Shown: positions 27,859 through 45,757 of the stretch, one piece after another
Numbering within the stretch: the first letter of the stretch is position 1
Layout: every line of letters begins with the position of its first letter
NCBI GenBank assembly: GCA_022600955.1
Contig: JAHZJK010000017.1
Span: 95,366 to 159,365, forward strand
Direction: 5' to 3'
DNA from: Gammaproteobacteria bacterium
Lineage (GTDB): Bacteria; Pseudomonadota; Gammaproteobacteria; Steroidobacterales; Woeseiaceae
DNA length: 64,000 nt
Position numbers and translations under genes: made by a program
Notes under the pieces: model-generated
The model's database searches: none
What the model saw: the letters and a program-made list of their open reading frames with translations, nothing else
What the model was told of the DNA's origin: nothing

Positions 27859-28089
27859 ACGCCCAATATTACACCGAGTTCGGCCCCGTATATGGGTTTG
27901 CGAACAACAACATACGACGACCAGCGATACGGCGACTTGACAATAAATAATAAAGTACGACAGCTCCATTGCGCGGCCCCGTGGCGTATGCAACGATGCT
28001 CGTGAAATTGAAAAAGGCACAGCTGCTGAAAAGCAGTCTCGCAAAGCCACCGGTCTACGGGTTTGACCTACGACAGCGGAGTTACCAAT

Positions 28090-45549: not shown

Positions 45550-45578
45550 TTGGAATTTAGAGGGTTACGAGAGATACT
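45550..45578 (+). promoter_or_regulatory. Sigma-70-like promoter for the 26-aa micro-gene
   Basis: TTGGAA (45550-45555) -17 bp- GATACT (45573-45578). Confidence 0.5.
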
Positions 45579-45611
45579 CTCTGCGGGCAAACAAACAAAA
45601 GGAGGTGATCC

Positions 45612-45692
45612 ATGTCTCGTGGGATAACAGAGGTATCTAGGAAACCGATGGGTCTGACGCGAATCCTGGAGCACCATTTAGAACTTCGCTAA
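45612..45692 (+). CDS. 26-aa small protein ORF with extended Shine-Dalgarno
   Basis: MSRGITEVSRKPMGLTRILEHHLELR; preceded directly by AAGGAGGTGATCC (45599-45611), the exact reverse complement of the canonical 16S rRNA 3' end GGAUCACCUCCUU. Confidence 0.6.
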   Translation: MSRGITEVSRKPMGLTRILEHHLELR

Positions 45693-45725
45693 CCCTCCTT
45701 TTCAGATACGATATCTCACAACCTG

Positions 45726-45757
45726 AGAAAGCCGCAGAAATGCGGCTTTCTTTTTTT
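45726..45757 (+). terminator. Strong Rho-independent terminator of the micro-gene
   Basis: AGAAAGCCGCA-GAAA-TGCGGCTTTCT: 11-bp perfect stem with a GNRA loop, then a T run. Confidence 0.9.

Follow-up and report, generated by a model that had tools for sequence, protein, structure and literature searches.

Among the RNAs described so far, the one closest to the unit analyzed here is CC2171, a small RNA (sRNA) of Caulobacter represented in Rfam by the family RF01867. Both RNAs carry the same element at the 5' end (AAAGGAGGUGAUCCA..UGUCU in CC2171), and they share a similar size, a terminator and a helix that pairs the beginning of the ORF with the foot of the terminator. They differ at the start site, where ATG directly follows GATCC in the window (the whole 64-kb stretch of DNA analyzed, from a Woeseiaceae genome) whereas CC2171 reads A-GTG, and in that the window unit has a 26-codon frame while CC2171 is annotated as an sRNA, the Rfam entry as available noting no ORF. 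In Mesorhizobium huakuii, MH_s33 was listed as RF01867 (a 215-nt entry beside the predicted coordinates), and RNA-seq products were reported for 34 of the 35 predicted sRNAs, only MH_s6 lacking one (PMC5596092). MH_s33 is alphaproteobacterial, and would correspond to the element-bearing Mesorhizobium loci found in this study.

Two further systems are relevant for comparison. Dual-function sRNAs and extended Shine-Dalgarno (SD) sites (e.g. in S. aureus, PMC13009471) resemble the unit in having a short ORF within a structured RNA and an extended SD near the start, but in our case the SD is the complement of the full 16S tail and the peptide is unconserved. The S. meliloti peptide SEP1 (23 aa, pI 4.18) showed the highest translation efficiency among unannotated sORFs (PMC10117765); it belongs to the same 23-aa size class as the Rhizobiaceae copies described below and may be a relative. 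In Caulobacter, only 24.6% of the genes have any SD (PMC4117421). The literature search retrieved no description of an RNA class with this element, or of the ORF carrying it.

Layout of the locus

An autonomous plus-strand unit was found at positions 45550-45752, consisting of a promoter, the element AAGGAGGTGATCC, an ATG, 26 codons and a terminator, in that order (Table 1). An earlier note on this DNA had described the promoter, the leader, the 13-nt match to the 16S rRNA, the ATG, the 26-codon ORF and the terminator, and all of them were recovered where it had placed them; its view of the whole as an autonomous unit of sRNA size gained support from both conservation and structure. The two promoter boxes are separated by a 17-nt spacer and were conserved in the genus alignment, although the automatic promoter scan did not list them. 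Transcription would start near 45585, and the RNA is best explained as a molecule of about 165 nt. The CAAC-type leader was present in Alphaproteobacteria copies too, and no Pfam family was found for the product of the ORF.

Table 1. Coordinates of the features of the unit within the window.
Feature	Position	Strand	Basis
-35 box TTGGAA	45550-45555	+	sequence read; CTTGGA kept in genus alignment
-10 box GATACT	45573-45578	+	sequence read; ATACT nearly invariant in genus
Short A/C-rich leader GGGCAAACAAACAA	45585-45598	+	GGGCAAAC portion conserved in genus
16S-complementary element AAGGAGGTGATCC	45599-45611	+	abuts ATG at 45612; near-invariant across clades
26-codon ORF MSRGITEVSRKPMGLTRILEHHLELR	45612-45692	+	stop TAA at 45690-45692
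P1 5' arm GTGGGAT, within codons 3-5	45619-45625	+	pair counts; cross-clade swap test
P2 5' arm GTATCT, codons 8-9	45633-45638	+	double changes in 5 of 6 P2 pairs
Putative internal anti-SD mimic CCTCCTTTT, just 3' of the stop	45694-45702	+	complementary to AAAAGGAGG at 45597-45605
P2 3' arm AGATAC, in the 3' UTR	45704-45709	+	covariation pair counts
P1 3' arm ATCTCAC, terminator base	45713-45719	+	covariation pair counts
Intrinsic terminator hairpin, then T	45725-45752	+	sequence; strong covariation

The TerB-like and class-V aminotransferase neighbours recurred in only part of the genus, and the neighbours of the Alphaproteobacteria copies were different. Linkage to one neighbour gene was therefore rejected, since the neighbours vary among clades.

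The 16S-complementary element

The element AAGGAGGTGATCC is the complement of the whole single-stranded canonical 16S 3' tail, and the match grows to 15 nt (AAAGGAGGTGATCCA, 45598-45612) if the tail reads TGGATCACCTCCTTT. The 16S gene was absent from this assembly and none was found in the relatives searched, so that the match is stated against the canonical tail; the tail GGATCACCTCCTTTCTAAG was found in two Alphaproteobacteria-type genomes. Only one site was detected in the window, even when up to two mismatches were allowed, and only one exact site in the whole assembly, with about 0.002 exact 13-mers expected by chance in 128,000 strand-bases according to simple arithmetic. The conservation of the element puts the match beyond chance. 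The predicted duplex between the window leader and the 16S tail reached -26 kcal/mol, compared with -10 for an ordinary SD.

The element was near-invariant among 175 family members (non-redundant loci with a detectable terminator), which were gathered with a pattern that itself fixes the core of the element. Independent of that pattern, a scan in which TC was not required showed that all the exact copies of AAGGAGGTGATCC with RTG at 0-1 nt spacing continued with TC, bar one; in the other matches the TG was differently placed, and these are probably chance sites. As the SD complements a universal sequence, its presence in distant loci could be partly convergent.

Conservation and distribution

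Conservation in sister genomes, proposed earlier as a check on the unit, was confirmed: a DNA search matched the unit in 56 of 100 relatives, and most genomes in the genus of the window (Woeseiaceae) have retained it. The 16-mer AAGGAGGTGATCCATG was found in 58 of 107 family genomes, with no matches to the reversed pattern. When 40 non-redundant copies, selected with a pattern in which AAGGAGGTGAT(C/T)CATG was fixed, were aligned, the invariant positions comprised AAGGAGGTGAT, then CATGTC after one variable base, and GTG.GA two variable bases further on. A DNA search with no fixed pattern recovered the element in each of the first 30 loci, the GATTC form being present in three. The usual number was one unit per genome; two Woeseiaceae assemblies each held two different copies (L055/L010 in G041; L079/L080 in G141), which could reflect duplication or mixed bins.

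The combination of AAAGGAGGTGATCC and TGTC at a distance of 0-3 nt also occurred in further families of the order and was widespread beyond the class. The element (G)AAAGGAGGTGATCC(N)RTGTC, followed by an ORF of 14-31 codons and usually by a recognisable terminator, occurred about once per genome across the Alphaproteobacteria, most of whose loci were grouped by peptide pattern rather than by tree. Among the matches listed, named records were mostly of Alphaproteobacteria (Sphingomonadales, Rhodobacterales, Rhizobiales, Caulobacterales, Hyphomonadaceae and Acetobacteraceae, among others), together with a Woeseiaceae record, a Gammaproteobacteria MAG and a few MAGs labelled Gemmatimonadetes or Acidobacteria. 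Mesorhizobium records carried the element, and in a Rhizobiaceae-type family 73 of 151 genomes had a match, one each. Two MAG records labelled Gemmatimonadetes (L165 and L200) had the element and a 20-codon frame sharing W-A-S, with an apparent TTG start.

The window unit had no match in phages, and a phage origin was rejected on this basis. A Sphingomonadales-type copy gave one 29-nt match among plasmids, on an Azospirillum plasmid (15% of the query), and a tblastn search of plasmids with one 23-aa Rhizobiaceae peptide gave none.

Relation to the CC2171 family

The RF01867 model aligned with the window unit over its full length (positions 1-159 of 159), including the 5' element and the 3' terminator, yet the score (28.7-28.8 bits) was below the gathering score of 75 that defines membership. 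When the whole genome was searched, the window locus was its only match (E 4.9e-4). The best score in the window's order was 46 bits, with none of the 60 genomes over the cut-off, while scores for the loci from Alphaproteobacteria lay between about 29 and 91 bits and exceeded it in four cases. Taken together, the scores formed a graded series from 91 to 26 bits, from the Alphaproteobacteria loci down to the window's order. A named Caulobacter genome was among those over the cut-off or matching the family. Apart from Caulobacter, three unrelated control genomes also gave matches in this search, below or without the cut-off, so weak matches alone prove little. Considering both the sub-threshold score and these control matches, the window locus is referred to here as a distant relative of CC2171 and not as an Rfam member. 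The element itself probably accounts for much of the score, in which case part of the similarity could be convergent.

RNA structure

Two long-range helices were predicted: P1, joining codons 3-5 to the base of the terminator, and P2, joining codons 8-9 to the 3' UTR (Table 1). In the 40-sequence set, 94.9% of the cells of P1, P2 and the terminator were paired, and double-change cells amounted to 104 against a mean of 36 in shuffled data; when the registers were slid, pairing fell to 38-52%. Double changes were located mainly in P2 and the terminator, and within the genus a single P1 pair changed in this way. Other clades also had a helix at the position of P1, built from different letters, where the mean duplex energy was -12.8 for own arms and -7.7 for swapped ones (3' arms exchanged between clades in the 175 non-redundant loci with a detectable terminator; 200 permutations, sd 0.21; "clade" meaning a group by locus source and peptide pattern, not by tree). 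The body is a covarying RNA.

In addition to these helices, pairing of the SD with a putative internal anti-SD mimic was predicted in some clades. The probability of an unpaired SD was 0.15 (0.35 in shuffles) in the Rhodobacterales-type clade and 0.10 (0.21 in shuffles) in the Bradyrhizobium-type clade, the latter with n = 4 sequences, and in both the start codon was predicted to be sequestered along with the SD. In Woeseiaceae, SD accessibility was near or slightly above that of shuffles (0.36 vs. 0.30). CCTCC was found 3' of the stop in 32 of 102 Woeseiaceae locus records, duplicate records included, and with only about a third of the records carrying it, SD sequestration is not general; a universal form was rejected in favour of a clade-specific one. 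One Rhizobiaceae clade (23 genomes from 15 genera) had the element with one extra A (AAGGAAGGTGATCC; SD variant AAGGAAGG), and 21 of these 23 genomes carried CCTTCC within 30 nt of the stop, CCTCC being found in none. In this clade the SD and its candidate mimic carry matching one-base insertions. The 3' part of a copy labelled Rhodospirillaceae (L235) contained GGATCACCTCC, which is identical to the core of the 16S tail.

Reading frame and peptide

Frame and stop position held across homologues, as a check for frameshifts and stop variation proposed in the earlier note required. Of the 62 distinct copies in Woeseiaceae, 61 had exactly 26 codons, and all three stop codons were used (TGA 41, TAA 13, TAG 7); the remaining copy (L078) had 31. 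No in-frame premature stops were present in the 40 copies tested, compared with a mean of 29 of 40 in column shuffles; these copies had been chosen for an open 26-codon frame, a choice that left out only one of the 62 distinct copies. All 27 Rhodobacterales-type loci (for which this length was one of the defining traits) and 26 of the 28 Sphingomonadales-type loci had 18 codons, as did every locus when the groups were instead set by record title or position (16 of 16 and 17 of 17). This conservation of frame and stop supports translation of the 26-codon ORF, as far as can be judged from sequence.

The peptide itself followed a different pattern. Difference rates at codon positions 1, 2 and 3 were 0.336, 0.343 and 0.377 in Woeseiaceae, 0.342, 0.294 and 0.238 in Rhodobacterales, 0.365, 0.396 and 0.282 in Sphingomonadales, and 0.493, 0.486 and 0.435 in the VSHC group (n = 4 sequences only), the Rhizobiaceae group (n = 2) being left unscored. 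No third-position excess was thus detected in Woeseiaceae, Rhodobacterales-type or Sphingomonadales-type loci, the three clades with a usable sample size, and the combination of an open frame with this lack of excess shows that, in those clades, selection acts on the frame but not on the amino acids. The earlier proposal to weigh synonymous bias against base pairing was borne out for compensatory pairing (P1, P2 and terminator), and not for synonymous bias. Within Woeseiaceae, codons 14-20 showed a modest third-position excess (0.258, 0.287 and 0.372), which may reflect a local peptide constraint. Charge was unconserved between relatives, with pI values from 4 to 12, and the wobble bases of an EQPS-like motif were near-fixed, which fits an RNA hairpin.

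The strongest of the alternative explanations, a small mRNA with an extra-strong SD encoding a functional microprotein, has to be weighed against these data. The open frame of fixed length with varied stop codons is what such a gene would show, and the variant-SD Rhizobiaceae copies (23-24 aa, pI 4.05-10.8) have a putative link to the efficiently translated SEP1 (PMC10117765). The missing third-position excess, the spread of pI and the mapping of conserved residues to RNA pairing make this explanation rather unlikely, and a microprotein under amino-acid selection was rejected on codon positions and pI. On the same grounds, together with the near-fixed EQPS wobble, the highly translated basic microprotein first suggested for the locus is not supported. 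The conserved functional peptide of a dual-function sRNA was not found either, the frame being kept and the amino acids not.

Interpretation

The features that can be read from the sequences are a 16S-complementary element, a covarying body, conservation of frame and stop with no sign of amino-acid selection, and predicted clade-specific anti-SD pairing. The front end, the folded body and the fixed-length frame are conserved across distant bacteria and the peptide sequence is not, so the importance of the locus probably lies in the RNA, and in how it contacts the ribosome, and not in a protein. The explanation we prefer, with a probability of about 0.5, is that the unit is a CC2171-related, ribosome-docking structured RNA whose mechanism includes translation of a short ORF up to a fixed stop, and not a microprotein gene. 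In this mechanism, the 5' tail would capture a 30S subunit through base pairing along the whole 3' tail of the 16S rRNA. The body would be a domain closed by P1 and P2 and enclosing the 26-codon frame; as P1 starts at base eight of the ORF, a docked ribosome would have to melt it to start, and would then run to the fixed stop, which just precedes the CCTCCTTTT mimic and the 3' arms of both helices. Translation would thereby remodel the RNA, acting as a ribosome-gated switch whose output would reside in the RNA and not in the peptide, either as sensing or titration of free 30S subunits or as exposure of a regulatory site. The option raised in the earlier note of an RNA that interacts with the anti-SD itself is supported by the conservation and structure described above.

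A broader and distinctly more tentative proposal is that an ancient, widespread class of RNAs senses or sets the free 30S pool, with the 5' tail competing for the 16S tail (in several clades against an internal mimic), passage to the fixed stop switching the fold, and the peptide as a by-product. An Rfam sRNA family with no assigned function proves to be a small part of a far larger class of RNAs, which carry an exact complement of the anti-SD tail of the ribosome at about one copy per genome. Such a class could provide a way to study how ribosome availability is sensed by cells, and could be a case in which selection acts on the translation of a short ORF and not on the peptide; laboratory Alphaproteobacteria offer a setting in which to test the family.

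An untranslated 30S decoy, in which the RNA occupies the 16S tail and dampens initiation, would account for an element that exceeds the needs of translation, with its -26 kcal/mol predicted duplex, and would agree with ribosome profiling in Caulobacter, where ncRNA regions were reported as not translated (PMC4117421), a result that counts against translation of the unit to the extent that those regions include CC2171. Selection on the frame, on the start (RTG; apparently TTG in the two records labelled Gemmatimonadetes) and on the stop position would have no role in a decoy, which is accordingly considered unlikely. The size, terminator and structure of the unit are also those of an sRNA, and its GGAGG-rich 5' tail might act in trans, or as a sponge, on mRNAs bearing CCUCC or on anti-SD sRNAs, of which the alpha-r14 group is an example. 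The conserved pairing potential is specific to the 16S tail even outside CCUCC, with GAUCC included, and ORF conservation would be left unexplained, making this role quite improbable in comparison with a ribosome-docking RNA whose short ORF is translated. A type I toxin mRNA or a leader-peptide attenuator, both of which share the short ORF and long-range folding, is hardly credible, given that the sampled peptides are unconserved and near-neutral or hydrophilic (GRAVY -0.47 to 0.08; -0.46 with pI 10.7 for the window peptide, which is not the short hydrophobic product of a type I toxin) and that the window copy has its own terminator, with the downstream class-V aminotransferase gene on the opposite (minus) strand and not co-directional as an attenuator would need. 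The same 64-kb window also contains a c-di-GMP-I riboswitch (RF01051) at 28006-28089 on the plus strand, with a score of 69.9 bits against a cut-off of 35.
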